A DNA stretch of 64,000 nucleotides from Crossaster papposus (taxonomy: Eukaryota; Echinodermata; Asteroidea; Velatida; Solasteridae), in contig JBAIAA010000096.1 of the NCBI GenBank assembly GCA_037893245.1, positions 1,612,001 through 1,676,000 on the forward strand, written 5' to 3'. Positions within the stretch are counted from its first letter, which is position 1; every line of letters begins with the position of its first letter. The position numbers and the translations under genes are program-made. This document shows positions 6,201 through 58,917 of the stretch, piece by piece. The notes under the pieces are model-generated. The model had not been told where the DNA came from and made no database searches. It was given only the letters and a program-made list of their open reading frames with translations.

Positions 6201-9200
6201 CCTGATCTATCACACTCCTGCAGTAACGCTAGGCTTAAAATCCTCAATCCATCACACTCCTCCAGTTGGTTCAATATGGAGGTATCCTGAATCCGCTAAA
6301 ATCCTCCGAAACAGGAAATGGATTTTGATGGACTCAGGGTGGTTAGGGTTAAAGAAACCCAACAAAATGTTAATCTCAGGAGTTTCTTTTTGGCTTGTTC
6401 ATAAAGTTCTGCACTATAACAATGAAACATTAGTGAGTTAATACTGCAAGATACAGTAGAAGTGTTTGCAGTGAGCAAATGCTTTAAGCCTTACTACCCC
6501 AAACCCATCAAATTTCCTAAAAACCCATTAAACTCCAACTGCAGATTTTGCTATGTTTTGGCAGGTTTTGTACCAAACCATAGCAACTTGTTGTTGAACT
6601 TTGTTTGACTCAGTACCAAAGCCCAGGGAGACCCTGTTGAACTTTGCGAGGTTCAGGGCAAAAAGACACGAGACTTGTAAAATGTTGGAGTTTAGGGCAT
6701 TTAGTCGTGGGGGGCCCACGGCTGGTCACGGCCCAGTTCTTGGTCAACTGTGTACATGTACACCCTGTGTTTCCGCATGGCCAGTCATCTCTGCACTAAT
6801 GCTGAACAATGCATTGAACCCATCTGTACCAAGTCAATCAAACTTCAAATGTTGGAGTTTGGCAGGTTTAGTACTTATAGGTTCAGTGCAGTGTACCAAT
6901 AATTACTGAACCTATGTGAGCTGTTGAAATGTGTTAGGTTTGGTATTCTTTCTAATGCGAGAGCCTAGATAGGGGGTTAGGGTTAAGGTGTTAAACTGCA
7001 AATTTGCGAGCGTCATCAATTGTAAATATATTTTGTTTTCCCATGTAGCCTGATTTCATTTTGAAAATTCTTAACAAATGACATTTAAATTCTTACGCTT
7101 TCATCGTCTGAAAAGTTTCTATGCGGTTTGTAAAGTTGGCTGCAGGTACTCGATTCCATAATCTAGAATCGGTTCATGGCATTAAAAGTCTGGTACTTGA
7201 GTACCCGGTTTCGATGCACAGCCCTAGTCCTAACCGAGTCATACACAGTATTGAAAGACATGTTCAGACTTGCCCAACCCATACAAATTTCATTTCTTCA
7301 ATTTTAAACCAAGGGAGCCACGACTGGGTATAACCCCTTTCATGATGGCCTCTGCAGAGGGACATGAAATCATTATCAACCTGCTACTGGATCACGTGAG
7401 TATTAGTGCGTAACATGTGCGTAGTTACATTCGGCTGATTGAGAATGCCCCCTCAATGCTGATCTGGACGTATCTCAAATTGTGACTCTCCAAATTTTAA
7501 ATTGAAATCAAAATCTTAAAATTCTGTTTTCCTGGAAAATACAGCATTTGGAATATACAGCTCCAGCTCCGTGTTATTTGTCAAGCACCATTTTTTTTAC
7601 ACTTAGCACCTTACTGCTTTAAACAATATCCAAAATGCACAACTGATACTGTACAGATTTTCATTTTTTATTTTTCAGGGTGTTGATGTTAACCTCCAGA
7701 ATGCGAATGGTGAAACGGCTCGCTCCTTTGCACTACTGAATGGCCACATGAAAATCATTGGCCTCATTGACAGCCAATGCATGTCACCTAGCATGGCCTT
7801 CAGCAGCCTCCGTAGTGAATCAGGTACATATACCAGATAGAGCGATATGAGGTCCAATTGTTACAGAGTTCCACTCAGGTGACATAGGTGGCTTGTGCAT
7901 AAAGCGCTTGCCTCTCACCAATATAGCCCGGGTTCGATTTCCCGGCCCGGACCATATGTGAGTAGAGTTGTGCGTTAGTTCTCTCCTGTGTCGCGACGAA
8001 TCTGCTCTGGGCCTTCCGGTTTTTCTTCCTCTGGAAAAAAACAAAAACCTAATTCTCTGACTGTGCTCCGTAGTTATATATGAGTCGGTGTGGCCGGCTG
8101 CAAGAGCCGGCTTTACGTGCCAGCGGCTCAACCATGTGTAGTTGCGTCCTTTGCAGTTTAGCACCCCAGCTGCAGTTATGAATGATTGGCCTTCCAAATT
8201 ATTATTATTATTATTAGGTGCGATGGTACGTAGGTTCAAATCCTGCCAGGAACATGATACTTGTGTACTTAATTGCCTCTCTCTACCCAGGAGTATAAAT
8301 GGGAACCTGTGAGGGTACAGACCATATACATGCTCATTTCGACCTGCTGTGAACTGGGGCCAATTTCACGGAGCTGCTAAGCACAACATTTTGCTTAGCA
8401 TGACAATTTGTCCTTGGTAAAAACAAGGTTACATACCAAATTTTCACGTGATCTTTATTGTTTTTGATTGATAATCAGCTGTTTTTTTGCTTAGCATAAA
8501 AAAACACGTAGAATTTTGGTTGATAACTTGTTTTAATGAGCAAGACATTTTTGTGCTCAGCAAATTTTTGTGCTTAGCAGCTCCGTGAAATTGGCCCCTG
8601 GTCCTAAGGCCTAATGAACAGGGGTAATAAATGTGAGGCGCTTTGAGACCTTTGGTATCAAGTTGTATACATGTATAAGCACTACAGTGTAAGTGCTAAC
8701 TTCACTGAGCTGATAAACAAAGGAATCAACCCAGCATGAAAATATTTAAAGTTCATGCACTCTGAACAAACTAGACTAGGTTTGCCTTGTCTTGTTCTCA
8801 TTTGGTTGTCTCAGCTCAGCTCCCGGCTGTCGATCTGTCATCCTCCGACGAAAGCTACCAGCGGCCCAACCGACCTCACGCTAGGTCTAGCAGGTTGAAG
8901 ACCAAAGGTCCTAGCATCTGGGATGGCCCCGAGACGCTAGCCAAGCTGCTGAGCGACCGCAAAGGAGGAAGCCAGGAAACCGTCTTGCCAAGCGCTGGTG
9001 AGTTATAGCTCAAAAACGTCATGGCTGTGTTATATCCACAGACTTGCATTTGAGTCACCAAAGTTCAAGTATTCTCCGAGTCACAATCCCGAGTCTGAGT
9101 CTCGAGTTGTGCAGGCCAATTCTGAGTCTCGAGTCACAAAAGTTGAGTCTGTGTCTGAGTCACAAATGTCGAGTCACAAGTCATGTTTAGGGTACTGCTA

Positions 9201-12200
9201 AATTCTGTCCCGCTGGTTTCCCATGCTACTATGCACGTCATCGTTTCGATGCATGAAGGTTTGCATGCATACGTATGTTTGTATATGTACAGACCTGCCG
9301 TACAAGAGGTACTGTTTTTGTTATCAGCCCCGCACTGTCTGCATCGTTTTCGAAATATTTAGTAGTTTTGTTGTTGAAAAAAGTTGTTTGTGAATGATAT
9401 TCAATCTTTAACTCTAACTCACTACTGCCTCTCCACTCCATCAAAATCCATCAGTCACTTTTTGTTTTATACCACTGAAGTGCTGATTGATGTTGATATG
9501 CTGTATGACAACAACACTACTGGATCCTAGGCAAAATTACGAAATTGCACTGGCACTGCTTCAGGCCTCCTGGACCAGGTTTATCCATGCCAGGCCACTC
9601 AGAATAAGTCTGCCAAAATCTAACAAATTGGGGGAGAATTTTGGCAGATTTGAGACGGTTATATTTAAAGAAAGCTCTGGAACTATTGCCAAGAGTTGCA
9701 ACCTATAATTCCTTTTGCAGGCAACTTATGGCTAACACCATTCCCACCTCCCAACCCTGCTACCAACAACAGCATTGATGATGAAGACCCTGCCTTCTGC
9801 AACTCCGGTGCCCAGACCATCAAGAGTAGCAACTCCAGTACCAGCAGTGGAGGAGGTGGAGGAGTGGGCAGTGGCAGGGGCTTCGCCGCTGCCCTGGGGA
9901 TCAGCGGCGGCAGCAGCAACCATTCCAGCACCGACGAGCACTCCTCAGAGACCTCCAGCTTCAGCCTCCCTCCGACCCCGAGCTCGAACTCTTCAGAGAA
10001 TGCCGGGTTTGCCGGGGCGCTTTCCGACCAGCTGTCACAGATGATCTCGGCCGACCTCAACCGCAGGGGCTTCGGTTTGGTAGATCCCCTTTACGCGGAG
10101 CCTCTAGTCACCGGTGGGATTGGAGAGGAGCACAGGTTACCAGCTTCATATCCCAACATGCCTTCACTAGCTAGTCCCCTGCACGCCACCCATCCCCACC
10201 AATTGCAATCAACGAATCCAACCTTGCACGCTTGCACAACAAACGGCGTGGGTTACCACTCAAGCGTGCTCCCCCTGTCCGGTGACATAATCCAGGACCC
10301 ACCCTATGACAAGCCTGCCGATAGCAAGCAGTACCCTTACCAGGACTTGGCCAGCCTTCTTGAGAGCCTGGGATTAAGAACTAAGTACTTCCATGTATTT
10401 GAGGAACAGGACGTGGACATGAGAGTGTTTCTGACCCTGACCGATAGCGACTTGAAGGAAGTTGGAATCAAGTGAGTGAATGTCAAGACATGGACCTCAT
10501 TTAGCTGTCACCATTCACCTGCTACCGCCATTTTAGGGGAACATTACACGTTCCTAGCTGTGAACCACATACAAAAAAATGTCTGTGCTGCAGTTATGCG
10601 TAGATTCATAAATAAACAAGCAAATACATGACATCAAATGCACACAATGTTTAAAGCCTGTCACAAGTTCATCGCGTCTTTTGATTGTCGCAAAATTTGA
10701 CGTCTTTTTGAGCTAGTTTTATGCCCTAAAAATTTAAGGAGCGAGACTATAATACTAAACAAATGTGTGTGTGTGGTTGTATAAATCTAATTACTGGTAC
10801 CCGGTATATGCAAGTGGTAACATTTCAATTGAATTTTTGACGTAGCTTTCCGTCCACTTTAAGCTTGTTTTACCCTTGAAACTGCATCATACCTCTGCCA
10901 TTTTGCTTTACTGTTTGAAGAGTTTCAAGAAGAGACCCAATGACTCCTTGGTATAATAAGACGACTGCCTATGGATTATCCACTCGTTGGACGAGTGTCT
11001 ATGATTAATTATGCAAAACAAGACAGCGTCTTAACCTCAAGATTCTGTCCATTCAGCAGGTGCTTTCTATAGCGATATCGTTATTAGCTGTTTCGGCCTT
11101 TCAGCCGAAACAGCTTTTGTTTTCGTTAAAGTTTTTTTTTTTTTTTTTTTTGTCACGTTTTTTCTGCCAATACACTTTGACACTTTGGTAAATCCGATCG
11201 ACTTGAGATTTTGCACATACTTAGACCAGCATCTGTGATGGTCCTAGAAGAAATTCGTCGCAATTACGTCATTCATGGTCACGTGACGTCGCGTTAAAGG
11301 TGCAGTTTTCCCCATAGGTTTTGTACACGTTTTCCTTCAGACTATTGACTTGGACACTTTAGTAAATCCGATTGACTTTAGACTTAATACAAACCTCAAC
11401 CACCATCCCCAAAAGGGGCCAAGAAAAAATCGTCATGATTACGCCATCGGGGGTCATGTGACGTCACGTTAAAGGTGTAGTTTTTAGGACCCTCTATCTC
11501 TGGAAGTACAGGTCTGATTGGGGTCAAACTTGGTATTCATGTATTCCAGGATGAGTTATAGACGAAAATTAAGATGAAATTATGATGACGTCATCGGGTG
11601 TCATGTGACGTCACATTAAAGGTTCAGTTTTTAGGACCCTCTATCTCTGAAAGTACATGTCTGATTGGGGTCAAACTTGGTATTCAGGTATTCCAGGATG
11701 TGTTATAGACGAAAATCAGGGTAACGTCATGATGACATCATCGTGGGTCATGTGACGTCACATTAAAGATGTAGTTTTTAAGACCCTCTATCTCTGAAAG
11801 TACAAGTCCAATTAGGGTCAAACTCGGTATTCAAGTATTCCGGATGTGTTATAGACGAAAAGTAAGTTGACGTCACGATGACGTCATCGGGTGTCATGTT
11901 ACGTCAGATTAAAGGTGTAGTTTTCCCCGTAGGATTTGTACACGTTTTTTGGAACATGTATTTGGCACTTTGGTAAATCCGATCGACTTCAGATTTGGTA
12001 CACACTTAGACCACCTCTCACATATTCAAAGTCATTTTAGACAAGCGAAACAGCTCTGTGTTTGTCCACAAACACATGTCTAGTTTAATCCTGTTACCTG
12101 TTGTTATGTTACAAAAGCACGGCAGCCATATTAGCCAATCAGAAGCTTTGTCCACATTTCTGCTTGAAATGTTGTAAGTCGACTCTGATTGGCCTGGCAC

Positions 12201-15200
12201 TCGGGTTTACATACAATTAACATGTCTAGGTATATCCGACATTATCCTCTACGGGTATATGATGTCTGTTGTTGTATAATCAGTGTGAATAATGTTTTGC
12301 CCAGACTGATGGGACCAAGACGGAAGATGACCAACGCTATTGCCAGATGGCACAGCCAGGCTCGGCCATTCTCAGACAATCTGGAGCAGGTCTATGCAGA
12401 CAGAGTGGAGACTGCTATGCAAGAAATGGCTATACAGTTACAGGAGGTACAATCACCCTACAGTAATGCTTGAATAACCTAACCTTCTGAGCTCTTTTTT
12501 GTCTAGCAGCCATCCTTAATCAGGGGCGGATGCAGAAATTTATGAATGTGGGGGTCTTAGCCATGAGCGGGGGGTGTAGGGGCGGGGGGTGTAGGGGCTC
12601 TCCCCCCGAATTTATTTTACAGTAGAAGCTCTGAGGTGCATTCTGAAACATTATGAGCCTATTTTTCTTATATATTTTGATCGTTTTGATCTATTGGGAA
12701 TCTTTTACAGAAAGCACCACGCTGCTGATATAAAAATACATTAACAACAAATTTAAAAAAAAAAAAATTAAAAAAAAAAATCCAGTCAAAAAAATAATGT
12801 GGGGTCCGGACCCCCAGGACCCGATCCCCTGGATCCGCACCTGTTAATCCTGCAAAATCCTCAATCCTGGGAAAATCCTCCAATTGCCAAAAATATTAAT
12901 CCTCAGTCCTCTAAAATCATCTGTTATTTCTTCTATTTGACTTTATCAACTCAATTATAAACTGTGACTCGACTTGACTATAAACTGCAACTCGAAGTCT
13001 GGACAGAATGATCCGACTTGAGTCACAAAACCTGATGATTCGTTACAACTCTGTGTCTGCAGGCCATGGTGAAGAAGGGCGAGATTGAGGGACAGGTAAG
13101 GCAGGAGCGGGAGCTGAGAAGTGTGGTGGAGGGATGCCTGATGGAGGACAGGAAGACCTACCAGCAGCTGCTGAATCTGGTGTCAGATGCTAGGAAGCTA
13201 TGCCATAATATGAGACAGCTCTATGACAGCGTCAGGTAAATGGATCTATCTTAACCCATTAGTAGGACTGTGCATCGGCACCTGGTACTCGAGTACCCAA
13301 ACGCTGTTGTCAGGAACCGGTTTCAGATTATGGAATCGAGTACCTGTAACAAACTTTACAAACTACAAAGTAACTTTTCAGACGATGGAAGCAAAAGGTT
13401 TTGAATGGTGTGTGTTGGGACTTTTCAAAATGAATCCAGGCTTTAAGGTAAACGAAATATATTTAAAGATTATGATGATCGCAAAGTTCATTGCAAACAC
13501 TTCTATATTGCTGTATTATGTAATTGACGTATTATAGTGCAAAAAAGATTATATAAAGCCAATGAAGTATAGTACCAGTATTATAGTGCCATTATTGAGC
13601 GGATGCCAAGAAGAGCGGATCATTATAAAGACTTGACGGAAAAAGAGGACAGATTACAAAAGAGAATTGAGGTAATGTCATTGAGAGTTACAGATAGCAT
13701 CCCTGCACTACATCATGTTAAAAGGTGAAGAAAAGTAGCTGATGCTACGAGGGCTGTTAATAAGGTTCTAGATCAGATTAAGACAAGTAAAATATCTGAG
13801 CTTAACAGTCTTGTGTATGCAGGTACTATCGTTGTGATGGAAAAAGTGGGGTACATGTACAAACAAGCTGTCAAAGGCAACAAGGAAGGTACACCTTGGT
13901 GGAAGTGTCGGCTCGAGGGACAGATCAAGGGGTTCTAAAGGGATGCGAGTAGGATTGAGCAGATGGACAGTGACGTTGTGAAGAAGTCTGACATGATGGA
14001 TAAACTAATGGCTAGTAAGTACTGTGTGCAAGGTAAGGGGATGACGGTCGTCAAGGAGGAGATCAAGCAACGGATTAAGGCGAGACGGCGAAGGTTAAGG
14101 AGGTACGACGACAGGATTAAGCAGTTTTGCCAGAACAATCTTTTTAGGTCAAAAAAACAAAGACAGCTATTTAGGAAACTGGATGGTAAGAAAGATGATT
14201 CACAGGAAGTTCCGAAAGCGGCTGAGGCGAAGGCTTTTTGGAAACAAGCCGACAGCACAACGACCAGGCAGAGTGGCTACAAGAAGTGGCAGAAGAACTG
14301 AGGTGTATTCCTAGGCAGAAGGAGGTAGAGATCATTGTGGAAAAAATCAAGAGGCAGTTGAGGAAAGTGTCAAATTGGAAAGCCTCGGGAGTTGATCATA
14401 TTCATGGATACTGGCTGAAGAATTTCCACAGTGTACACAGTAGACTTGCAGTTGCAGGGCATTTACAGGAGTGTCTCGCCCGTACATGGGATTCTGCCAA
14501 AGGTGGATGTCTGAGGGGAGGACTGATTTGCTTATGAATGATGTCAGGAAGGGAAAGGTTTCGTTTTAAACGTTGCAAGTAATTACAGACCTATTACTTG
14601 TCTACCGTTGTTTACAAGCTCTTGACTAGTCTAATAGCTGAGGATTTCTATTCTCACTTGGAGGAGAATGGTTTGTTTCCGGATGAGTAGAAGAAACGGT
14701 CAAGGGAACGAAGGATGAACTGGTGATCGACAAGTCTGTGATGAAAAATTGTAAGAAGAGGTAGACCAATTTGTCAATGGCGTGGATTGACTACAACAAG
14801 GCATATGATATGTTGCCTCATTCGTGGATCATGGAGTGTTTAAATTTAGTGGGGGCGAGGCATTTGCTAAACAACAGTATGAAGACATGGAAGACAACGT
14901 TGACAGCTAAGTAAGGGTAAGTCTGGGTAAGGGTAGTATCAGAAGAGGGATATTTCAAGGAGACTCTCTGTCGCCACTGTTGTTTGTTCTGGCGCTAATA
15001 CCTTTGTCTATGGACTTACGAAAGGCCATCACCAGATATGAGATAAGATGGCTGCCGAGTTAATGTATTTGTGGACGACCTGAAGTGGTTTGCCAAGACA
15101 CCAGACAGTTTGGTGTGGAGAAGTGTGTAGTCTTGACTTTATGAAGGATACAAGTATCTTGGTGTTTTGGAGGCGGGCAGCATGATGCATGACAAAGTGA

Positions 15201-33122: not shown

Positions 33123-33743
33123 TAATGTTTTGTCATGGTAGCCTGTATTTAAAGTGCTATTCACGCAGATCCTTTTTTTTCAGAATCCATGTTATTTCCT
33201 TAACCTCGAGGGAAAAAATCAATTTATTTTAAATTTGAATATTAATCATTTCGGCGACCCTGTTAGTCGAAGCAGCCCAGATAGTCCAGGAGCTAGCAGA
33301 CTTTTATCGGTATTGTTGAGTACGAAAGGTTTGACACCTGAAATGAGTAGGACTATGTGTGGGAACCCCAAAATGTGGATTCTTAAGTTTGGCACTCTTG
33401 CACTGCCCCCTGGGGGCACTCTCAAAATGACCCCCCCAAATTTTTTATCGGTATTGTGGCGTACGAGGACCAATTTTTTTTCATATGTACTTCAAGGGAG
33501 TCTAATTTCAAAAAGCCAATTCTTAAGTTTTCAACTAATGCACTAAGCCACTTAAGAATGGCCTAATTAACGCTAATTAGCACTTTTATCGGTATTGTCA
33601 CGTACGAGGACACATTTTGGCTCAAAATGTACTCCAAGATATCCTGATTCCGAATATCTAATTCTTAAGTTTCAACTACATGCACTAATCCACTTAAGAA
33701 TGGGTCAAAGATCGATAATTGACCTAATTACGTTTGGAATAAT

Positions 33744-36426: not shown

Positions 36427-37038
36427 ATTATTCCAAACGTAATTAGGTCAATTATCGATCTTTGACCCATTCTTAAGTGGATTAGTGCATGGAGTTGAAA
36501 CTTAAGAATTAGATATTCGGAATCAGGATATCTTGGAGTACATTTTGAGCCAAAATGTGTCCTCGTACGTGACAATACCGATAAAAGTGCTAATTAGCGT
36601 TAATTAGGCCATTCTTAAGTGGCTTAGTGCATTAGTTGAAAACTTAAGAATTGGCTTTTTGAAATTAGACTCCCTTGAAGTACATATGAAAAAAAATTGG
36701 TCCTCGTACGCCACAATACCGATACAAAAATTTGGGGGGTCATTTTGAGAGTGCCCCCAGGGGGCAGTGCAAGAGTGCCAAACTTAAGAATCCACATTTT
36801 GGGGTTCCCACACATAGTCCTACTCATTTCAGGTGTCAAACCTTTCGTACTCAACAATACCGATAAAAGTCTGCTAGCTCCTGGACTAAGAGTGGCTTGC
36901 GTGCAACCTGAGCTCGACACGCGCAAGCCTCGTGCTATCGCAGAAAATGGCTGCCCTCGAATGAGTCAAGGTCTGGCTTATCCGTACTTAATATTTATAA
37001 CTTGGTCATGTGATTCAAGTCACCTTCGAAGACTAGCA

Positions 37039-44880: not shown

Positions 44881-45298
44881 TCGGGCCTCATAACTTCACG
44901 AAATCCACAAGTGCTCTTATTAGTGTTACAGATTTTTTGTCTTGCCTAACCATACACAATTGCCCACCTTCCACCAAAAAGATCGGGTTATTACCTTTCT
45001 TCATTTTATGATTTTTTGGATTTGCGACCTTTGGGTTTTCCCTTTGTAGTGTATCGAACAGTTCCGCAACATCCAAAGCCTTGTTCAGACAGTTTTGCTA
45101 TCAGCGACGGACTCGTATAGTAATTATCACAGTATATGATGTGTCCCTTAATCTAAAGTGGTTTGATAAGTTCAATGACCACTTTTCATGCAACTGTCAC
45201 GTTTGGTGGATGGCAGTCTGATGACTCGGAATCTACATGTACCTGATCTTTAATACAGTTTGGGTGTTGTCGGCGCCCGTGTACAGTTTCCAATTACA
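44881..45298 (-). pseudogene. piggyBac transposase remnant, C-terminal part
   Basis: Reading the minus strand from the junction at 45298: LYTGADNTQT, then GHIIYCDNYYTSPSLIAKL (the conserved DN-Y-TSP catalytic region) and GFGCCGTVRYTTKG. In another frame RQDKKSVTLI resembles the DKRDV region. Stops and frameshifts show decay. It continues the fragment at 51627-52200; the two are separated by a 6.3-kb insertion. Confidence 0.85.
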
Positions 45299-45398
45299 TA
45301 TGGGCGGCCATCAGGGCAAAAAAGACATATCGGTAAAATTGTTTTTCCCGCACGCGCACTCAGACAACTCAAACAATTGTAATCCCCGCCCGCACGAT

Positions 45399-46258
45399 TG
45401 CATTCCCCCCGCGCGATTGCATTCCCCCCGCGCGATGCGATTGCATTCCCCGCGCGATGCGATTGCAATCCCCGCGCGATGCGATTGCATTCCCCGCGCG
45501 ATGCGATTGCAATCCCCGCGCGATTGTAATCCCCCGCACGATTGCATTCCCCACAAGATCAGAATGATTCCCCGCACGATTACATTCCCCGCACGATTAC
45601 ATTCCCCGCACGATTACATTCCCCGCACGATTACATTCCCCGCACGATTACATTCCCCGCGGGATTACATTACCCGCGCGGCTGCATTTCCCGCGCGGCT
45701 GCATTCCCCGCGCGATGCGATTGCAATCCCCGCGCGATGCGATTGTAATCCCCGCGCGATCCCCAGCGCGATTGCAATCCCCCGCACGATTGCAATCCCC
45801 CGCACGATGGCATTCCCCACAAGATCAGAATGATTCCCCGCACGATTACATTCCCCGCACGATTACATTCCCCGCACGATTACATTCCCCGCGCGGCTGC
45901 ATTTCCCGCGCTGCATTCCCCGCGCGATTGCAATCCCCGCGCGACTGTAATCCCCGCACGATTGCATTCTCCGCACGATTGCATTTCCCGCGCTGCATTC
46001 CCCGTGCGATTGCAATCCCCGCGCGATGCGATTGTAATCCCCGCGCGATTGTAATCCCCAGCGCGATTGCAATCCCCCGCACGATTGCAATCCCCCGCAC
46101 GATTGCATTCCCCACAAGATCAGAATGATTCCCCGCACGATTACATTCCCCGCACGATTACATTCCCCGCACGATCACATTCCCCGCACGATTACATTCC
46201 CCGCGCGGCTGCATTTCCCGCGCGGCTGCATTCCCCGCACGATTGCATTCCCCGCAAG
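45399..46258. repeat. GC-rich minisatellite, left array
   Basis: Imperfect 17- to 22-bp units such as CACGATTACATTCCCCG and GCGCGATTGCATTCCCC. A marker unit CACAAGATCAGAATGATTCC recurs at about 45552, 45817 and 46112, showing a higher-order repeat of about 265-295 bp. Confidence 0.9.
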
Positions 46259-46457
46259 ATTGTAATCACCGAAATATTAGGCACTAACTAACGATAGAGG
46301 GCGCTTTTTATTTGTCAAACACAGAGCTAGTCTAGTCCGACAAAAATAATTGCTGATTTTTTTTTTGGACAAGATGTGGCAGAGGCATAGAGCTATATTA
46401 AATTACTAGAGCGCCCTCTGGATGTACAATTAAGTGATGCGAGCTGGGCGCATCCAT

Positions 46458-46923
46458 GAGCAAGTTCGGGCGCGAACTATAGTTAACCATAGTTCGACTA
46501 ACATCGCTCGAACGCAGAATGGTTGGACTATCTAGTCGACTATTTGGAACCAGACCCTGGAGCACGGTTGCCGCTGGTTGACAGTAGCCTCTTTTCATAG
46601 GAAAACATGGAGAGAACCAGTGACCGTGTCAGTAGTCGGACGGAGGGAAAGGCAGTAACGTTAAGTGAAAATCTGGCGGGCCTAATGTAATTTTTGTCTT
46701 GTTTTTGGACCAACATGACTAACGTTATGGCTTATACTACTTATATGCGTGGAAGAATAGTGGCAATACCCATTTCATTCATGTCGCAAATGTAAACAAA
46801 GCGGTTGCCATCTTTTCAACAATAGTTCGACTAGAGCCGTTCGAGCGAACTGCATTTGAGCATGCGCATTGGTAAAGCAGAGACTGACTAATGGTTAACT
46901 ATAGTTCGCGCCCGAACTTGCTC
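46458..46923. mobile_element. MITE, GAGCAAGTTCGGGCGC ends
   Basis: Near-perfect inverted ends of about 33 bp (through GAACTATAGTTAACCAT), with CAT on both sides as a possible 3-bp target duplication. Confidence 0.85.
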
Positions 46924-47252
46924 CATGTTTGTGCACAAATCTATGGAAACCTCACAATTTTGTACGGCTTTTGTACGGCTATTTGCATATCTGCGTTTGT
47001 ATTCTATACAATGCGTTATAGCCGATACGCCCCAAACCAAAACGCATGATCAGCAAATGAGCGCAAACATCGCAAATGCGCGTGCGTATTCGCGCGCTGC
47101 AGTTGAATTTGCCGTGACTTTTTTTGCCTGACATGACGCGCCTAAAGTTGTTTGCGTCTGTTCTACTTGCACGCGCGTTGCATTTAGGGTACACTTTCAA
47201 AATTAAATCCATCTATTTTTATTATGTTCTACAACACGCACATGAATTCAAA

Positions 47253-47422
47253 GGCCGAGTTCGGGCGGTCTGTTCTTGACACGCGTAACTTGTTCTTGCA
47301 AAACCCTGATGGATAGGTGGTGTGTGTTCTTGTTCCGAGTGCAATGTTCACGGGTCGCGTTCCCGCCGTTCGAGCGCGAGAACAGAGTTCGCGTGTCAAG
47401 AACAGGCCGCCCGAACTCGGCC
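47253..47422. mobile_element. MITE, GGCCGAGTTCGGGCGG ends
   Basis: Inverted ends extend through TGTTCTTGACACGCG; AAA on both sides; 170 bp. Confidence 0.8.
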
Positions 47423-47512
47423 AAAATGTCTGCGTACAGAATGGATTCAAAGGATCTCCGCGCGTAAAAATGAAGAGTTAGCGCTCTAGTAATTTAATAT
47501 AGCTATATGGGC

Positions 47513-48440
47513 AGAGGGCACTCCACATATTGTTACCCAACACACCCCTCCTTAAAACCTAAAAAGAACTCCTGAGATTCCGGGAACACAATTGGGGGGG
47601 GGGGGGGGGGGGGTTCCCTCAGCTACATATCGCGCTTCATATGTTTTTGTTAGGGCAGGGAGTCAGACTAGATTTCCAAACGATTCAACGGTGTTGGTTT
47701 ACACAGGTTGTGCACATGCGCTGAATGAAGCGATTGTCCCCGATATATGCGATGGTACGCCACCGCCGTTTCTTAAGCGACATGCTGTACAGTTGTGCAC
47801 ATGTGCCATTTTCAAATCCAGATCAAATAAAATGCATAATTTATGAGCGGTGACCCGCGACAGAGGGACGATAACAAACCGGAAATTACTGATGAATACT
47901 GACATTAGGGTCTTCTTAATTTTCATGAGTTTATTCATAAGGATATCCGTGATGTAATAACCCCCAAAACAAACCCTATATAGTTATAGATATACTAACC
48001 TGTAAAAAATTCATTTCAAAAGTGGTAGCAATTTTAAGATATTGACGACAATCTGGAGCGGTTATGTCTACGCAGGAATAATAATCTGCATTGGAATACA
48101 CAATCTGCGAAACGTCACTGCAGTAACGCTTCTCAGATTCAAATTTTTGAGGATCAAAATGGATATCTTTTTCCATAACCGCAGTACTTCAAAGTGAACA
48201 GTTTCTAAAAATGCATTATACTATCCAAAGCTGCTGTACTTCTTCTTACCAAGTAAGTTTTTATGGCCATTCATTTTTGGAGTAATTACCAAAGGTATAC
48301 GATCCCTTTGAACAGTAGGAGGGATTTATATGATGTTAACAATGGTTGAGGATGGTTCACAATGCCCTAATAAATAAAAGCTGTTGCCATATTACTTGTC
48401 TCAATGAATTTTGTTTAGTCACAGAAGCCTTGAACTAACT
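47513..48440. other. Composite interior, no gene recognised
   Basis: Contains a G19 run at about 47595 and a repeated TTGTGCACATG word (about 47707 and 47794). No coding support. Confidence 0.4.
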
Positions 48441-48902
48441 CTAGGCAACGAATGTATGGTTGATAGTTCCATATGTTTTCGTCAATGTCCGAAGCCAAAG
48501 TGACCATGATATACTCCATATTTTCTGCTGATCATTCACAGTCACATCATCCTCTCCTTGTTCTGGAAGAGGCGCTTCATAATCGACTCCAAAGTTTGCC
48601 ATTCCCTTCACACAAAAACAAAACAAAAAACAGCATGCACTTGGCCGGCGATTTGCCTGGGTTTTCTTCTTGTTTACAGTTTTCATAGATTTTTTCATCC
48701 TGGAATATGGCGTTTCTTGGAGCATATTATTTCAGAGGGTACATAATAAGCATGTGTCAAGCTCTCAATTTTAGTTTACGATCTCGCAGTCAGCGACAGG
48801 GTTTGGTTAACGGTTTTTAAATGAGAGAGAGAGAAACGGGGGGGGGGGGGAGAAAAGAAAAAGAGGCGAAATAATATCACTGTAAATTTGTTTTATGGGG
48901 GG

Positions 48903-48948
<46 letters not shown>

Positions 48949-49786
48949 CAGATGTCTCTGACCCCCTTGAACATAACGCATCAACAAAATCCTTGAAAAA
49001 TAGGGCAGTTTTGAGGGGAAAATGCGCTCTGACCCCCTCTGGTGCTCAGTTATCGATGGCTGACTAAATGCTAATTTTTGCATTATCAATGCAAATGTAA
49101 TGAAGTACATGTACATGTACCTTTGAAGATTCAATAAATTGAAGTTCATAATTTGTACACGTATTTTTTAAAACTTTCTATACATCCTGGGCACGCACTG
49201 TACATGTACATACCTGTCTGACATCACCAAAGTACTCATTGGGTATTACTGTGTCAGAGCATGGAGGAAGGAAGAGTTTGCAACAGCATGGAGACCACTG
49301 ATGAACAGCTGAATTGGAGATCTGTTCCCTTCTGTTCTAAGTGCATGGTTGTTCCAAATAGAGACAAAGACTTGAAGAAGTTTGTTGATGCGTGGTAAAA
49401 ATACCATGCTCAGACAAAACAGGTGCGATTCATTATCTGGGTCAAGAATGCCAATGTCTTCCATATGATAGAACAGCGCGTAGAAAGAAGACAATACCGC
49501 CTCATACACATCCCTCCAAAGTCTTTCTATTCGACAGTTGTGAACACTGCGCCCCCAGATGAAACTACCTCTACCTTCACCTCTTGATGGATGGCTTGAC
49601 ATGAAGACCTTGACCAATGCATTTTCTCCTCCCTTGTCCCCTCTCACTCTTGATGGTAATCCCCATTCAGCTACAGCTTCCTTAAAGCAGCCAAGGACTG
49701 TCTCCGACCAGTTGTTGTCACTTGCTTTCAAAAAAACGACGACTCGGCTGAACCCCTCAATACCGCCATGCACAACGAAACGCCAT
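48441..49786 (-). pseudogene. Integrase-core (DDE, rve-like) gene remnant
   Basis: The main exon on the minus strand starts after an acceptor TTTTGTTGTAG at 49787 and encodes RWRFVVHGGIEGFSRVVVFL, RVRGDKGGEN (second acidic residue) and NCRIERLWRDVYEAVL (catalytic Glu). The first catalytic Asp would lie in an upstream exon not found here. At about 49255 the frame shifts; the shifted frame reads NEYFGDVRQ up to a donor CAG/GTATGT (49214). A further piece at 48441-48645 (acceptor GTGAAG) reads FGVDYEAPLPEQGED. The pattern matches integrase-core proteins found on transposons in fish and invertebrates. It lies inside the composite element; whether it belongs to it is unknown. Confidence 0.7.
48900..48948. 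repeat. G homopolymer run
   Basis: About 40 uninterrupted Gs (48907-48947), preceded by another G11-12 at about 48839. Its length in the assembly is probably unreliable. Confidence 0.9.
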
Positions 49787-49799
49787 CTACAACAAAATC

Positions 49800-50376
49800 A
49801 TACATATTTCAGTATGAAAAGGTGGTAAGCTCTTAACAATTTTCTGTCCCTATTAAAGAGGGCAAATTGTGTGTATTTGTGTAAAATGACCCATAGACAA
49901 CCTTAAATTTTGGAAGACTTGTGGTTAACCCCCACCCAAGGAACGCTCTGTAGTGAGCAGCCACGATCGTACATGTTGAAGTACTACAGTGTCAATCCTG
50001 TGCCTTTATGCAACATTTTAAACAGTTTTACATCAACTTTAACATATGGTCTTATGGTTCATACAGACATACAGAATTTAGGACTGGTAGGTATCTCCCA
50101 AGAGATTTGTTTGGGCGAGAAAAGAAGCAAAACACTGGTGGCCCTGTCTTCCTGTTCATTTCCTTTCTCGTTTGTTTGTTTGTATGGTGTGTGCATGTGG
50201 CACATTAGTGTTACTTCACAACAAAAGTTCTTACCATGTTAGGCCTTTTTTTTTAAAGGAAGGAGGAGGCCCTTTTTTCCCCTTTTTTTCCAAAATGGCC
50301 GCCTGACACATTTTAATTCGAGTCATGATTGTAGTGAACATGTCACACCCTATCGTGCAAATCTGTCATTCTGCAT
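49800..50376. other. Composite interior, right part
   Basis: No exon found upstream of the integrase piece. 50245-50356 is a reversed fragment of the MITE 40745-41143 (AAGGAAGGAGGAGGCCC, ATTCGAGTCATG). Confidence 0.5.
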
Positions 50377-50385
50377 ATGTCTGAA

Positions 50386-51540
50386 TCGCGCGGGGATTGC
50401 AATCGCATCGCGCGGGGATTGCAATCGCATCGCGCGGGGATTGCAATCGCATCGCGCGGGGATTGCAATCGCATCGCGCAGGGAATGCAATCGCATCGCG
50501 CGGGGATTGCAATCGCATCGCGCGGGGATTGCAATCGCACCGCGCGGGGAATGCAATCGCACCGCGCGGCCGGAATGCAATCGCACCGCGCGGGGAATGC
50601 AATCGCACCGCGCGGGGAATGCAATCGCACCGCGCGGGGAATGCAATCGCACCGCGCGGGGAATGCAATCGCACCGCGCGGGGAATGCAATCGCACCGCG
50701 CGGGGAATGCAATCGCACCGCGCGGGGAATGCAATCGCACCGCGCGGGGAATGCAATCGCACCGCGCGGGGATTGCAATCGCACCGCGCGGGGATTGCAA
50801 TCGCATCGCGCGGGGATTGCAATCGCATCGCGCAGGGAATGCAATCGCATCGCGCGGGGATTGCAATCGCATCGCGCGGGGATTGCAATCGCACCGCGCG
50901 GGGAATGCAATCGCACCGCGCGGCCGGAATGCAATCGCACCGCGCGGGGAATGCAATCGCACCGCGCGGGGAATGCAATCGCACCGCGCGGGGAATGCAA
51001 TCGCACCGCGCGGGGAATGCAATCGCACCGCGCGGGGAATGCAATCGCACCGCGCGGGGAATGCAATCGCACCGTGCGGGGATTGCAATCGCACCGCGCG
51101 GGGATTGCAATCGCATCGCGCGGGGATTGCAATCGCATCGCGCAGGGAATGCAATCGCATCGCGCGGGGATTGCAATCGCATCGCGCGGGGATTGCAATC
51201 GCACCGCGCGGGGAATGCAATCGCACCGCGCGGCCGGAATGCAATCGCACCGCGCGGGGAATGCAATCGCACCGCGCGGGGAATGCAATCGCACCGCGCG
51301 GGGAATGCAATCGCACCGCGCGGGGAATGCAATCGCACCGCGCGGGGAATGCAATCGCACCGCGCGGGGAATGCAATCGCACCGCGCGGGGAATGCAATC
51401 GCACCGCGCGGGGAATGCAATCGCATCGCGCGGGGAATGCAATCGCATCGCGCGTGGAATGCAATCGCATCGCGCGTGGAAGGCAATCGCATCGCGCGTG
51501 GAATGCAATCGCGCGGGGGGAATGCAATCGTGCGGGCGGG
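50386..51540. repeat. 22-bp GC-rich minisatellite, right array
   Basis: About 52 tandem units of GCAATCGCATCGCGCGGGGATT or its GCACC..GGGAAT variant. Variant units (CGCGCAGGG at about 50480, 50834 and 51144; 24-bp CGCGCGGCCGG units at three places) reveal higher-order blocks of 354 and 310 bp. The unit has no stop in any frame, so all six frames stay open for over 1.1 kb; the long translations are artefacts. Confidence 0.95.
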
Positions 51541-51626
51541 GATTACAATTGTTTGAGTTGTCCGAGTGCGCGTGCGGGAAACACAATTTTACCGATATGT
51601 CTTTTTTGCCCTGATGGCCGCCCATA

Positions 51627-52200
51627 ATTACACGTGTATCCCGATTTGCTTTCGTTCATTGGAAATGCTTTAATACGACGGTTTCACGGTTTGGGGGGGG
51701 GGCATGTACTGAATACAACTTAAGCGTCCCTTGGTATTTACAGGTTAAGAAACTTCGGGATAATGACTTCTATCAAGGGCCGAACTTTGGAAAGTTTGTC
51801 CCGTTTAGCCGAGGATTTAAGAGGAATTTGGTTATTTGAGATGTGGAGAAACTGAAGAATGGAACTAAAACAATTTCTCGACAATACCGACGGATAAAAT
51901 GGAATTTGCCAAATGTCTGGCGTTGACCAGTACATCCTGTATTAAGATGATTTGTTTATGCCCATAGCAATGATAAGTGCTACAAATGCCATCATTTTGG
52001 GAACGTTGGTTGGGTTCCAGGAGAACTGTTGTTCAGGCTTTGAGTCCATTGTTTGCTGCGCATAGCGATTAGTCTCGTCGACGAGCGTATCCCACACGAG
52101 TTTACAACAACACAAAAGCTTGAAGATCTCCACTGCCGATAGTGTGGCAAAGTCGCCGGTGGGGCCAGGATTTCCAGTGAACTGCACAGTCCCACGATCG
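51627..52200 (-). pseudogene. piggyBac transposase remnant, N-terminal part
   Basis: Minus strand: FKLLCCCKLVWDTLVDETNR, AFVALIIAMGINK, then after a stop YWSTPDIWQIPFYPSVLSRN, ILQFLHISNN and KVRPLIEVIIPKF, the standard order in DDE_Tnp_1_7 proteins. In another frame KYQGTLKLYSVHAP leads to SKSGYT at the junction 51627, where the composite element begins. Several frameshifts. N-terminal residues before about 52190 are not recognised. Confidence 0.85.
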
Positions 52201-53750
52201 TAGTGGTCTCGTCGTTCCCAACCAGATCGGAAAGTGAAATTTGTTTTCAGTTTCGAACGACAGGTGTAAGTGTCTTTATACTTGCATACATGTGGTTACA
52301 TAACCACAAGCATTATAAGCTGAGCGCTTACAGAGATAGCACACTCTCGTTCACGCACCAGTACAGCCTTTCCCTTCCCAGTCATTCCAAACCTTAAAAA
52401 AAAACTAGGTATTTAACGGAAATTCGGTTCATGAAGTACGCCTCCGCTGACTGCCCAGTACGTACCCACGTTTCCCCCACCGGTTTTTTTTCGTGGCCAC
52501 CGAGCACTGGTGATTCATCATCAGGCTGGCGGTCGACACCAATATCATTGTGTCAGTCGAGTAAAACCCTAGCAAGTCGCACTTTATCTCACTTGCTTTC
52601 TATATAATACATTCACCGTGATTTTATAAAATTGTTGCATTTGAGTGACCTTTGAATGCATACACTTTGGAAGTGTAAGCAAGGTGTACCAGCGTGCACA
52701 ATTCCAATTGTTCACCAAAGTACAAGTGTTTTATTATATTGTGTTTTAAATAAAGGTAGAATTAGAAAAGAAATTAACTTTCTTACGGAGGTATGTAGAA
52801 AGAAATTGACTTTTCCGGTTCTTGATCTGACGGCTGTCACCTTGGTAGGTAGGCTGCAAGAGAACAACGGTCAAGTTTTAATCTCGGTCCTACATTTGTT
52901 AATGCTAATTGCTGCACAGGCCACATGCCTAAAATGAATATTGCGCTGGGGAAAAGACGATCATGGTGGCCTCAATAGTCGTTGCCGATACATTGTCTTG
53001 GTAGGCCTAATGTCATGAATGTGAATGCCTTGTGAATGGTATTGTGAATATGGCGAATGCCTCCAAATTCTTTCAAAATATTAATAGGCCAAACGGCCTA
53101 CGATCAGGCTATTCGTTTTGAAGGTTAAGACTAGTGCACTTTTAGCTTGTGGACTTTTTTGGACGTAAAATTGCACGACAGGCTATATCATGTTTATGGG
53201 TGGAGGTGAATGCTATAGGGACCTACACTAGCTGTTTTAATGAATGTAATCATACTCAAGCCTATTGGCCGGGAAGACTACATGCGCTTATCTCTTGAAA
53301 TTATGTTGTGTTTTTGCCGACTATGCTCTCGTCGTCCGAAGATTCATCATCTGTGGCATCATTTACGTCGGATTCTGAATCATCTGCCAAAATCTCAGCC
53401 AAAATCTCAGCATTTAGTGCCGTTTCCATCCTTAAAAACCGACACCGCTACCCCTGCTGACTCGATCGACTGCGTGCATACGCGCGCCCGCATGTTAAAC
53501 GCAAAATGACGCTACATCAGCCACGTGACCGGCGGCGCAACCATGATGCACGCAGCCTGCATGCCATTAGCCTCTGTCATGAATTGGCGAAAATCAACCG
53601 AAGAGGGCGTTTTGCGGAAATTTGTCAATATGGCTTCCGAGCTCTCGCGTGAGACTAACGTTAGCTATACCAAGGAGGAAGGAAAACAGATAGTTAGTGA
53701 AGTGCGGGGGGAAATACTTAATAAGCCTTTTCGAAGTATGGCTGCCTGAT
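52201..53750. other. Intergenic between piggyBac remnant and THAP/YqaJ transposon
   Basis: No recognised gene. A short serine-rich open frame starts at 53323 (MLSSSEDSSSVASFTSDSES) and another ends at 53749 (MASELSRETNVSYTKEEG); either may be a decayed first exon. 53568-53640 has an inverted partner at 59922-60000 (CATTAGCCTCTGTCATGA). Confidence 0.4.
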
Positions 53751-53787: not shown

Positions 53788-56700
53788 ATGGCTGCAGCTG
53801 TCCGAACGTCAGCAATGTCAACTGCAGACAGTGGCACCGGCGTTGAGGTGAGTACTTTGTTAAAATGTTAGTATTTTTCTGCAATTATTTGTTATAGGCA
53901 CGACAGTTTTTAAAATTGTAGGCCTAGTTAATTTCGGTTTATCAGAATTTATAAACTGAAGAAATTCCTAAATGCAAATTTAGTTTTTTGTTAATTTGGG
54001 ACTAAATTTTATGACACTGAAATCGGGAAAGAATTAGTCACAGATATCACACAAAAAAATACTACTTCGACCTAGGCCCCCTATCAGCCATTAGAAAGCA
54101 ATACATTTTCTAAAAAAAAATCAAATTTAGCTCAGAAAATACTGAAACATTTACTGAGAAAACAATTTTTCAGACTAGTCCAGACTCACTCAGGCAGGGT
54201 GTCGTAAGTGATGTCTGTGAATTCTTTCGCCCGTGGGTCAACAATGCATGAGGAAAGTCAAGGGAAATGTTGAAATGTACCACGTTAGGAGACTCCACTA
54301 TACAGCTAACAATAGCCCCCCCCCCTCCCAAAAAAAACCAAAAAAAACACTAGACTAGACAGACATTATGCGTCTGTTGAGAACATACGCATGGCTATTC
54401 TGTTTAATTGGATGTTTAACTCTCCCAACAGATTTCTCCAGAGAAGCTGAAACTAGAAGAGCTAAAAAGCTGGTTAAATGAGAACAAGGTTCCGTATCAC
54501 CACTCATGGAGGAAGTTGCAACTTGTACAAAGGTAAGACTAAGAGCCTCAACGTTGATTTTTACGTTCAGTTAAAAATTCATCAATTTTAAATCACTTAT
54601 TCAGGTTATACAAAAAATTACCATGGATCTTTTTTTTAGTTCGAAATTTTTTTCACATTGTACACATCAATCCGTGGATATTTTAATTTGTATTGCTTAA
54701 TGGTGAACATTTTTGCATTAATGTTGAATTTGCATCTCTTTGTGAGACTGGTAATTTGATTGAAAATAAAATGATAGCATCTCGAACGGACTTCTAACGG
54801 TGGCGCGCTGCAGGTAGATCGTCGTGAAAAATAATCACACGTCTGGGCTCGGGGGAAAAAACAATAAAACCCATCACGAACTGGTTAATCGGTATATAAA
54901 ATGTCACATTGGATTTTTGTACTTTTTCGGGTACTCAAGAACCATATAATTGCAGTAATTGGGTGCTGGTCCCAAAGTTAACCGTAAGCGCTTATGCATA
55001 TTAAATATTTGATACCATCACTTTAAACAAAGTGTTTAATTATAAATATTTCAAAAATATTAAGTGTAAATACCATATAATAACAAAATGCAAATTTTTC
55101 ATGATTTTATCTTTCAGAGTAAAAGATGCTGTTGCCAATGGATTTCAGCCACCAATTCCCAAAAGGGGCACAAAATCATCTAGTAAAGTAACATATCCTG
55201 CGACTGGCACAGGTTGGACAAAATCTCTCGTTAATGTAAAGGTCACGCTGAAGATGGTTGATGAGTATGTAGTACAGCATAACACAAGTACCTTCCAGCG
55301 TGAAGACCTCTCGGCACCAAGTGTTAAATTGAAGGCATTTAAATTTGCAGCTGAAGGATACTGTACAAATATTCTCACATACCAATCAGTGAACACTGTA
55401 TTTTGTACTGGTCGGTGTTTTCACTCATTTAAGAAAAATGAGACCCCACATGTAGTCAGGTGTGCTCTCAGAAATGGCCAGGTACATCATGGGGAATGCA
55501 CATGTAGCGCAGGAGATGGCGGCCACTGTAACCACGTTTTGGCACTGTTGTATTCCCTCTGTACGTTCACGGATAATAAACTGACTACAGTGCCAGATGA
55601 CATTACTTGTACCTCAATGCTACAGAAGTGGCATAAACCACGGGGGAAGAACATCTGCCCTGAACCTATTGACCAGGTTGTGTATAAGAAAATTCGAATG
55701 CAGGATGAGTCAGTATCCACACGAGTAACCACTGGCATTCATTTCAACCCTCTACAAAGCAGCAAGGGTACCACTGCTCCATGATCCCCAATTGATCAGG
55801 CAATCAGTGTACAAATTACAAAACATCAACCCACGGATTCCAGCTGCATATATGTTGAAGGCTTCTCAAGAGTCCACCATATACATCCGAACAATATTTG
55901 GACCAGTAGAGAAGGGGTCGCTTCTGTCGTACCAGCATAACATCAAAAATCCTGTCAGTTTTCCCACGATCAGCAACATTACTCCCTCTCATGGTTGTCC
56001 ACCCCAGACTCTTGAATACCCCCCGTTTCCTTTGCACGAAGTCCCTCACTATTCTTCATCCAGCTTTCAGATTCCAAATGATAGTGATGAGTATCTTGAC
56101 TTCTTGCACGGCCTTGTTTTGACATCTACGGAGGCAACTGAACTAGAACAGGCCACACAAAAACAGTCAGAGTGATTTGTGGAAGTCTGCACGCAAACAC
56201 AGACTCACTGCATCCACATTTGGTAAAGTTAAGCAAGCAATGGGTAAAAGAGGGACTAAATCCAAAGATAACATTGTTAGAGGCAAACTTGATCCAAAAC
56301 AACCATCTCAGTATGTGCAAAACATGTTTAAACATGGTCTTAGGATGGAACCAGTTATTGCTGAGAGATACACAGTATATATGCATATCATTGGTCATCC
56401 TGTAAAGGTGATGGACTCGGGTTTGGTGGTTAATGAGAATAATGTATGGCTTGCTGCAACACCCGACAAGAAAGTTGTTGACCCGTGTGAAAAGTCACCG
56501 TTTGGAATAGTAGAAATGAAGGCCCCTGCCCATCCAAAATACAGATATGTAACCCCCTTAGAAGCCTGTAATTCCCCAACATTCTACCTTGAAAATTTGG
56601 ATGGGTTCCCACAGCTAAAACACATGCATGAATGTGGGTATTATGAACAACTACAAGGAATGGCTTTGACTGGGGCCAAGTGGTGTGATTTTGCCTTTTG

Positions 56701-56824
56701 CACGGAAAGGGGAATGACAGTAGAACGCATCAGATATGATCATCATTTCTGGATAGAAACTGTCAAACATTTGCAGGAGTTTTACCTTCAATATTTTGTT
56801 CCAGCTGTCCTCAAGTTAAGTTAA
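53788..56824 (+). pseudogene. SAP-SWIM-YqaJ nuclease gene of the transposon, two frameshifts
   Basis: Exons 53788-53847, 54432-54532 and 55118 onward, GT/AG, in phase. Residues 1-20 are a leader. A SAP-like helix pair lies at about 25-60 (LKLEELKSWLNENKVPYHHS). A SWIM zinc finger follows (GECTCSAGDGGHCNHVLAL, first Cys near residue 181). The frame stops at 55784; another frame carries on (IFGPVEKGSLLSYQ, LTSTEATELEQATQKQS) and a third from about 56170 holds the YqaJ/lambda-exonuclease-like domain. That domain has SARKHRLTASTFGKV, LAATPDKKV (metal Asp), GIVEMKAP (ExK) and YYEQLQGM. Catalytic residues look intact; only the two indels (about 55780, 56168) break it. Stop TAA near 56824; AATAAA at 57066-57071. 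Confidence 0.88.
54795..54887 (-). mobile_element. CCAGTTCGC-family MITE fragment inside the transposon
   Basis: GGGGGAAAAAACAATAAAACCC then ATCACGAACTGGTTAA, with AATAATCACACGTCTGGGCTC as in the family. Lies in intron 2 of the YqaJ gene. Confidence 0.55.
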
Positions 56825-57412: not shown

Positions 57413-58917
57413 TTATAACCTTTCAAGTTTTGCCTTTGTTTCAGAAAGAACCTCATTTAACTTCAAGATTTGGTTTTTCAATTCATCATTTTCTTTCTGC
57501 AAAATAGTCTCCGGTGTTACATGTACTTCTTTAGCTTCTTCATCGTTTGATTTCTCTACGGTTGTGTTATCTGCAAAGTCAGGACGGTGTCTAGGAAGTC
57601 TCCGCTCTGATTCCTTTGTAGCTGGTGTCTTGGTCCATGCAAAAATCGAGGGTACAGCATATGGTAGCGGTGTGTTCTTTGTTCTACATGTGTCTTTCAG
57701 GAAGTCAGTATCTTTAAAATGAAGAGAGCATACTTTCGTGTGTTCTGATATTTTGAAATGTTTACCAGGGTCCCGCTTAATTACATGTAACCACTGACGC
57801 CTGATGAATTTTAGAGCTGGTAGTTTGTGAAATGTGACTTTCCTTCCATCAACTGTTCTGTAGCCTGATTTAGGACACAGGGGTACACAGCAGCTGTGAG
57901 GCATACCTGAAACATTAAATAATAGGAAAACAGAAAAATACAATTGAAAAGTGTCCAGTATGCCACTTGAATTCAACTTATTTCTTGAATACGCCTATTA
58001 TTTTTGTTTTTTATCTGGGGAATGGTGTAGTATCCGACCGCTACTTTTATTTAACAATAAAAGTTAGGAGGGCCTGACGTTTCGATCCTAGCACAATCTT
58101 TCTCAAAGGCTGAATGACAAGAAAATACAAATGTAGACACCGACATGTTTGACAACGCACTAGTAGTAGTACAGATGAGAAGATGGACAAGGGGACGGGG
58201 AATAAAAGAACTTGTAGGCTTAGGTGGGAAGGATAATATGAAAGCAAGAGGTCAAAGAGAGGGAGGGTACGTATAAAACTGTGTGGAAGTTGGGAATGCC
58301 CAGGCTGGGCCCGAACAAGTTGAGGTAATTACTGTCTGTGGGACAAAGAAAGAGGAAGAAGAGGAATGATGAGGGGAAACCGAGGTGAGAAACACAACAT
58401 GTACAATAACAAAAAAGGACAATAACTTGTTTAAATTTGTGGAAACAAATAGATCATAAATTGAAGCTGAATGCATTAAAGTTAACCTCAGCGATTGTAA
58501 AAACTGCTAACCGCGCAGGCCCCAACAGTACTGGCAAGTTGGTTTATACAGAACTAACCACGTTAATTAACTAGAGTCATCATGGTCATGCATGATGTCA
58601 TTGTCATGCATCATATACATATATCCCAACGACGTTCAAGCACGCATGGCATGGGAAGTAAAATGTTCGTTAGTAAAACTTAAGTACTATGACTCAATAA
58701 TGACTCTGTCCTTTTTGTAAGAAAACAAATCACAATTTAGTACAAAAACACCAATGAAAAGTTGGCCAGATACTTAAACAGGTATTCTTCTTCATACAGT
58801 TCACACATTTTATTACATTAGCATACTCACCAGCTTCATCGATTGATAGGCCTACTTCGTTTTTGTTGTCACAAAAACTAAACTGTGTCACTGTGCTTGG
58901 CCGCCATGATGAATGTT
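57413..58917 (-). CDS. THAP-domain protein of the transposon (no DDE domain)
   Basis: A leader exon runs from about 58917 to 58831 (donor GCTG/GTGAGT, inside the right TIR); the coding exon runs 57906-57413 (acceptor ATGTTTCAG), ATG at 57904, 163 residues, TAA. The N-terminus is a C2CH THAP zinc finger: CCVPLCPKSG, HKLPALKFIRRQWLHVIKRD, KVCSLHFKDTDF, ending in an AVPSIF box. A basic linker and a coiled coil follow (ENDELKNQILKLNEVLSETK). After TAA the same frame stays open for about 20 coiled-coil-like residues (NVQEELNQAKEKVES), so the stop may be premature. THAP domains bind DNA, here presumably the TIRs. A DDE domain expected of a transposase is absent from 56830-57412. Confidence 0.85.

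Follow-up and report, generated by a model that had tools for sequence, protein, structure and literature searches.

A 64,000-nucleotide stretch of the genome of the sea star Crossaster papposus (GenBank assembly GCA_037893245.1, contig JBAIAA010000096.1, positions 1,612,001 to 1,676,000 of the forward strand; hereafter the window, numbered from its first letter) contains a 6,328-bp mobile unit at 45299-51626. The unit is seated within an old piggyBac transposase gene and has a minisatellite array inside each of its inverted ends. At a probability of roughly 0.87, we read it as a non-autonomous, decayed member of a multicopy family of cut-and-paste DNA transposons of the IS3EU/GingerRoot type with foldback-type ends. 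Membership of this type can be proposed because the internal transposase, the termini and the duplication length all fit. The combination of a known transposon class with repeat-bearing ends looks new.

Boundaries of the unit and its empty site

The unit has inverted ends, TATGGG..CCCATA, and is flanked by a 6-bp duplication, ATTACA. Its arms (45299-45432 and 51493-51626) are 97% complementary over 134 nt, and even with up to three mismatches allowed the window holds the 18-nt tip nowhere else (0.02 occurrences expected). The features of the insertion are as follows, handles in C and L denoting contigs and loci of the genome-wide search.

45293-45298, no strand: target-site duplication ATTACA, left copy
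45299-45381, plus: left terminal tip, ~83 bp, opening the unit with TATGGGCGGCC
45382-46262 (approximate), plus: left minisatellite array, 17/18/22-bp units, ~60% GC (Tandem Repeats Finder (TRF), unit split, composition)
46386-47509, no strand: inner stretch lying between the arms of a 29-nt inverted repeat, with two more inverted pairs inside
48441-48731, minus: open frame with NFGVDYEAPLPEQGEDDVTV; same piece in the C365 element, no Pfam match
49246-49797, minus: C-terminal portion of the transposase integrase core (profile positions 20-185 of 194 in Pfam rva_4, E=8.3e-67)
50356-50382, minus: remnant of transposase exon 1, RHMQNDRFA, nine residues adjoining the right array, earlier codons lost (by eye, against the C365 translation)
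50387-51545, minus: right minisatellite array, 22-bp unit x ~52, ~66% GC (TRF, unit split, composition)
51546-51626, minus: right terminal tip, closing the unit with GGCCGCCCATA (arm complementarity, tip search)
51627-51632, no strand: target-site duplication ATTACA, right copy
51942-52295, minus: N-terminal portion of the decayed piggyBac transposase that the element interrupts and that resumes past it to ~45000 (PF13843, E=2.6e-05)

The first array units are common to both ends; further inward, the left and right arrays differ in unit length and higher-order period. TRF resolves the right array, over 50387-51530, into 52 units of 22 bp with 96% matches, and higher-order periods of 310/332/354 bp are superimposed on these. 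CpG observed/expected is ~1.65 in the arrays, at 60-66% GC, versus 0.87 for the window. The three inverted-repeat pairs mid-element at 46386-47509 (29, 33 and 47 nt) are possibly small nested elements.

Removal of the unit together with one ATTACA joins SKSGYTCN/WKLYTGADN in a single reading frame. The joined flanks align through the junction to the solved piggyBat (entry 9c0f; E=2.3e-08) and the joined piece matches Pfam PF13843 at 59-181, with the right-flank piece at 2-55 and the left-flank piece, in another frame, at 191-245. This host copy is a relic: it contains stops and changes frame. For a 400-base query made of the joined flanks, the genome yielded 173 candidates and 40 scored matches: 35 uninterrupted paralogues run over query 1-400, three are partial and cross the join, and two are the window's own flanks. 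Each of the four empty sites examined is without the insertion, AATTACACGTG being exact in three and changed by one base in the fourth; a single ATTACA stands in three of the four, again with one changed base in the fourth. piggyBac transposons duplicate TTAA. The duplication here is ATTACA, and piggyBac is the host gene.

The empty site shows one net insertion; array lengths at the time of the move are not thereby established. A 7-bp duplication, AATTACA, would restore the empty site equally well. We prefer 6 bp because the 7-bp version puts the end symmetry off by one base and 7-bp identity is found in only 2 of the 30 tip pairs examined genome-wide. A sequence-only reading of this DNA had drawn the boundaries, the flanking ATTACA and the restored piggyBac frame as we find them. 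It had assigned ~115 bp of unique DNA to each end, which shrinks to ~83 bp followed by an array whose first units both ends share. Its statement that both arrays moved as one unit holds for the unit, with arrays at both ends in all 30 pairs, and does not extend to the present array lengths. Its description of the unit as composite is misleading, since this is one transposon family and not two mobile arrays around cargo.

A multicopy family with 6-bp duplications

The exact tip occurs 70 times (37 plus, 33 minus) in the genome of 1,023,315,904 bases (1.02 Gb; 1,841 contigs), and its reversed-pattern control not once. Sixty-two of the tips form 31 inverted pairs, 1.5-31 kb apart; two are extra tips at such loci and six are single. 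Our examination covered 30 exact-tip pairs, five single tips (that on C499 was excluded), both ends of C630 and the four variant loci L057-L060. An exact 6-bp duplication flanks 25 of the 30 pairs, or 18 of the 23 distinct flank combinations; flanks from different copies, paired with one another, match in 4 of 506 cases. Chance or artefact is rejected because 70 tips stand against none in the control, and because of the duplications. The sequence-only reading had looked for its support to inverted tip pairs elsewhere in the genome, to 6-bp duplications around them and to piggyBac copies without the insertion, all of which are present.

The 31st pair, on C630, is bordered left and right by GGATGG (by eye) and shares its flanks and site with the pair on C117. 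Two loci that are single by exact tip (L046 and L049) have partner tips in altered form; TCCACG lies on both sides of L049 by eye, and the duplication at L046 is ambiguous. Tip sequence is similar over 84 bp among the copies compared, its first 18 nt being the search pattern. Nine near-identical copies (L013-L017, L020, L029, L030 and L032) were omitted from the all-against-all comparison; at L032 the array was measured to the outer tip, and duplication and flanks were compared to the inner tip.

Some copies appear to be related by events other than transposition. Eight ~2.1-kb copies (L013-L017, L020, L029 and L032; contigs C115, C156 (four), C233, C639 and C740) have common 12-bp flanks on both sides and represent a single insertion copied along with a longer sequence around it; the four on C156 are spaced ~260-270 kb. 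L012 (C75) and L030 (C639) are without exact duplications and have their flanks swapped between them, as might be seen after recombination between two copies. The pairs at C117:3049217-3073922 and C630:539504-570475 share flanks and duplication at lengths of 24.7 kb and 31 kb and are probably two haplotypes, or a duplication, with an internal difference of ~6 kb. A single exact 18-nt tip match in viral contigs (L001), at which the end sequence stops by eye, was taken as chance.

An integrase-like transposase inside the family

The transposase core of the window copy fits Pfam rva_4, which we take to be the IS3EU transposase family, far better than rve (E=8e-67 versus 0.049). From general knowledge of DDE (Asp-Asp-Glu) enzymes, we read RGDKGGEN as bearing the second catalytic Asp and RIERLW the Glu of the triad. 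The closest transposase matches by identity (94-97%) sit inside the C117 and C630 tip pairs. Pieces of the 24.7-kb C117 copy tile rva_4 2-21, 20-125 and 127-185; the first of these holds WHIDGNHK, with the first Asp, and scores 23.4 bits, just below the Pfam cut-off of 26. The open frame at 48441-48731 may be the C-terminal exon. An HHCC zinc domain upstream of the core is not part of the IS3EU/GingerRoot type. C117 exon 2 gives weak helix-turn-helix matches, all below cut-off, and exon 1 none; no integrase zinc domain is found among the matches up to E=1. Because the window copy is without the transposase start and the first catalytic Asp, it is a non-autonomous, decayed copy.

The termini fit the IS3EU/GingerRoot type. 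The window copy has TATGG..CCATA at both ends, and so by construction have the other pairs, the tip being the search pattern. Foldback-type ends, meaning a tip followed by internal tandem repeats, are found in 30 of 30 pairs.

Several points weigh against this assignment. Five of the 30 pairs lack an exact duplication; at L010 and L019 the 6-bp repeat is present and shifted by one T, and at L031 the duplication is absent for no evident reason. Exons 1-3 of relatives have no tblastn match in the window copy, the C117 core is broken by a frame shift and an intact transposase was seen in none of the exact-tip copies examined, the C630 interior not included.

The C365 element (L038/L039), a 21.4-kb copy, also holds an uninterrupted 1,615-residue open frame at 9022-13866 on the minus strand. 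An AlphaFold model of the fragment (mean predicted local distance difference test score 43.8) and the one match of the integrase fragment among solved structures (E=0.52) were not used. In searches for relatives of the transposase, one stretch in viral contigs matched a pattern and bacterial and archaeal genomes gave 54 stretches, none of them confirmed; phages gave no match.

Minisatellite arrays across copies and relatives

By our own pattern, with TRF run as well, each of the 30 pairs bears an array at either end, and the onset of the array lies 83-105 bp in from the tip. One 22-bp unit, searched exactly, occurs at 33 genome places, all 33 within 500 bp of a tip on the same strand. This search, made with that word and no other, revealed no solo array away from tips; the sequence-only reading would have fallen had the two arrays occurred only as such independent insertions.

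The layout recurs in relatives with other repeat words. Allowing up to three mismatches, the 29-nt tip has 141 places in the genome, and the variant loci L057-L060 come from the matches listed among these. L057 (3.9 kb; duplication GTAATG) and L058 (4.9 kb; duplication GTTTAG) have paired tips, TATGGGCGGCCAATAGGG, differing at 2 of 29 bases, and long inverted ends with A-rich arrays of periods 18, 19 and 35 bp or similar, unlike the GC-rich unit; no transposase piece was found inside either. In L054, whose transposase is 62% identical, the left tip agrees in its first 12 bases; 55- and 36-bp arrays follow it and then ordered transposase pieces, with no right end within the stretch examined. 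L056 (transposase 56-58% identical) has no such tip and one 21-bp array, and carries little weight as its ends were not located. Near the tip, L059 is A-rich with no evident unit and L060 has a run of TACATG-like repeats (by eye, 330 bases).

Because L057 and L058, for all the closeness of their tips, have A-rich arrays where the other copies have the GC-rich unit, the array layout outlives the repeat word. We advance more tentatively, at distinctly less than even odds, that arrays at both ends are obligate in a whole clade of IS3EU transposons, in which one subfamily has a GC-rich word of 17-22 bp, another an A-rich word of 18/19/35 bp and the more distant relative one of 36/55 bp, while the outermost tips change far less. 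If so, either the layout and not the word is selected, or the DNA-binding part of the transposase and the word co-evolve in an arms race, and the transposon would be a seed of new satellites.

We put at a little better than even odds that the arrays are repeated transposase-binding or promoter/control DNA, a putative role proposed mainly because the layout is kept across subfamilies with different words. The transposase gene, whose 5' control region the array would form, starts close to an array: the exon-1 open frame begins 3-4 bp within the inner edge of the array in C117 (from residue 13), C365, L011, L021, L031 and L045, and its first Met is residue 32.

Somewhat short of even odds, the arrays may instead be passive by-products of slippage or unequal exchange in the ends, with no part in transposition; the identity of the element would be unchanged. 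Such growth accords with array lengths that differ several-fold between copies, with the different unit lengths and higher-order periods of the two arrays in the window, with the different words of subfamilies and with two single tips of the same sequence that have no array (L047 and L048). It sits less well with arrays kept at both ends of all 30 pairs examined, with an onset 83-105 bp from the tip, with the confinement of the exact 22-bp unit to the neighbourhood of tips, with the presence of other-word arrays at both ends of L057 and L058, and with arrays past the left tip of as distant a relative as L054. A fixed, sequence-specific role for the arrays is doubtful mainly because of word turnover and length variation, and subfamily words that differ would suit a fixed binding site only with co-evolved specificity. 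The tips without arrays at L047 and L048 also detract from a role. Within a copy, the array on the left resembles that on the right no more than arrays of different copies resemble each other (median Jaccard 0.24 versus 0.23; 6 of 23 above 0.5), and general homogenisation of the arms through hairpins is therefore unsupported.

Other classes of element

A derivative of a Polinton/Maverick element would share the 6-bp duplications and a retroviral-like integrase, and some copies of this family do reach 14-31 kb. Polinton/Maverick elements carry a protein-primed polymerase and virus-type genes. No virus-type genes were recognised among the open frames listed, though no search was aimed at them; the termini are TA..TA and the core prefers rva_4 to rve by the wide difference given above, which together make this origin very improbable.

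Foldback elements, mostly of Mutator type, typically have tandem repeats inside long inverted ends, and Drosophila FB elements combine kilobase length with ~20-bp units. That the unit is a foldback element of Mutator type (FB, Rehavkus or Phantom-like) is nevertheless a shade less credible still. The duplications are 6 bp, against 8-10 bp in foldback and Mutator-like element (MULE) comparison cases, the internal transposase is rva_4 and no Mutator transposase was reported for the pieces searched; the 8-11 bp duplications and MULE transposase that mark MULE foldback elements were not found. Tandem arrays are prone to assembly error and the layout was read from the assembly, yet two independent minisatellite insertions flanking a piggyBac-borne segment, or an assembly artefact, can be dismissed for practical purposes, given that all 30 pairs repeat the layout, that 18 of the 23 flank combinations which are distinct show an exact duplication and that the empty site is uninterrupted in piggyBac paralogues.

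Proposed mechanism

Mobilisation of the IS3EU/GingerRoot-type copy in the window would most likely have been by cut-and-paste and in trans, an integrase-like DDE transposase supplied by a fuller relative pairing the ends and excising the element. The excised element would then have been joined to staggered target cuts 6 bp apart in the old piggyBac gene, so that ATTACA now stands at either edge. The arrays may repeat a binding site for the N-terminal helix-turn-helix of the transposase, form the 5' control region of its gene, or both, and the array on each side may grow and shrink independently by slippage or unequal exchange.

Elsewhere in the window

Neighbouring open frames at 55005-56824 match a YqaJ recombinase domain (E=9.7e-12) and, weakly, SWIM; they are perhaps a gene of another mobile element. 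A piece of a THAP domain protein lies at 57413-57994 (minus; E=1.6e-14). A near-identical peptide, GASRLLSVLLSTKGLTPEMSRTMCGNPKMWILKFG, is encoded at 33142-33546 (plus strand) and again, ~3 kb away and inverted, at 36624-36965 (minus strand), which suggests a further element whose ends are inverted. Ankyrin-like repeats (by eye) and a SAM domain (E=5.4e-07) at 2673-2990 and 9669-10475 belong to an animal-like gene.

Comparison with known systems

IS3EU elements are described with TA..TA termini and 6-bp duplications (PMC10045372), and fungal members with termini TAYGG..CCRTA (PMC12730594). The present family is like them in its TATGG..CCATA ends, which fall within TAYGG..CCRTA, in its 6-bp duplications and in its integrase-like DDE transposase. 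It is unlike them in its minisatellite ends, of which the available portions of both accounts make no mention: minisatellite, tandem repeat and subterminal have no occurrence in the text of PMC12730594, nor have minisatellite and tandem repeat in that of PMC10045372. Open-access PubMed Central, a scope that leaves Repbase and most subscription papers outside, yielded no description of an IS3EU element with such ends in the texts as available. Oyster satellites CgiSat35 and CgiSat47, annotated DNA/IS3EU, likewise come from a marine invertebrate and are tandem repeats that resemble IS3EU (PMC8268682); compared by table entry only, they differ by their listed values of 690 and 129, presumably unit length in bp.

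The sequence-only reading knew of no transposon superfamily with such ends. As far as the available parts of the reports go, foldback types supply them: Tetris, Galileo and Muta1 all have an outer tip followed by tandem repeats in their inverted ends, and many defective copies. Tetris has terminal inverted repeats of up to 1,735 bp with 220-bp repeats, 8-10 bp duplications and a suggested Mutator transposase (PMC4079207). Muta1, with a 145-bp terminal inverted repeat, and 10 of 12 Aedes MULE families with long terminal inverted repeats carry 9-15 bp repeats, Muta1 having a Mutator transposase and 8-9 bp duplications (PMC5225508). Galileo, of P type, has inverted ends of ~1.2 kb with direct repeats (PMC3688188). 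All three differ from the present family in transposase and in repeat unit, and Tetris and Muta1 in duplication length. Rehavkus, which is Mutator-related, likewise includes a minisatellite adjoining a terminal inverted repeat; it differs in having this before the 3' end only, in its 9-bp duplications and in its transposase (PMC6446971). Kilobase length and ~20-bp units are found together in none of Tetris, Galileo, Muta1 and the Aedes MULEs, or Rehavkus, in so far as these sources describe them.

Foldback ends have been tied mainly to Mutator and P-type transposases, and here they stand on an integrase-type, IS3EU-like transposon that retains pieces of its transposase. A single genome here houses subfamilies whose repeat words differ, a natural experiment on the function of repeat-bearing ends and on how transposons seed minisatellites. 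For the putative binding role of the arrays, Galileo is the precedent, as some of its repeats are reported to bind the THAP domain of its transposase (PMC3688188).

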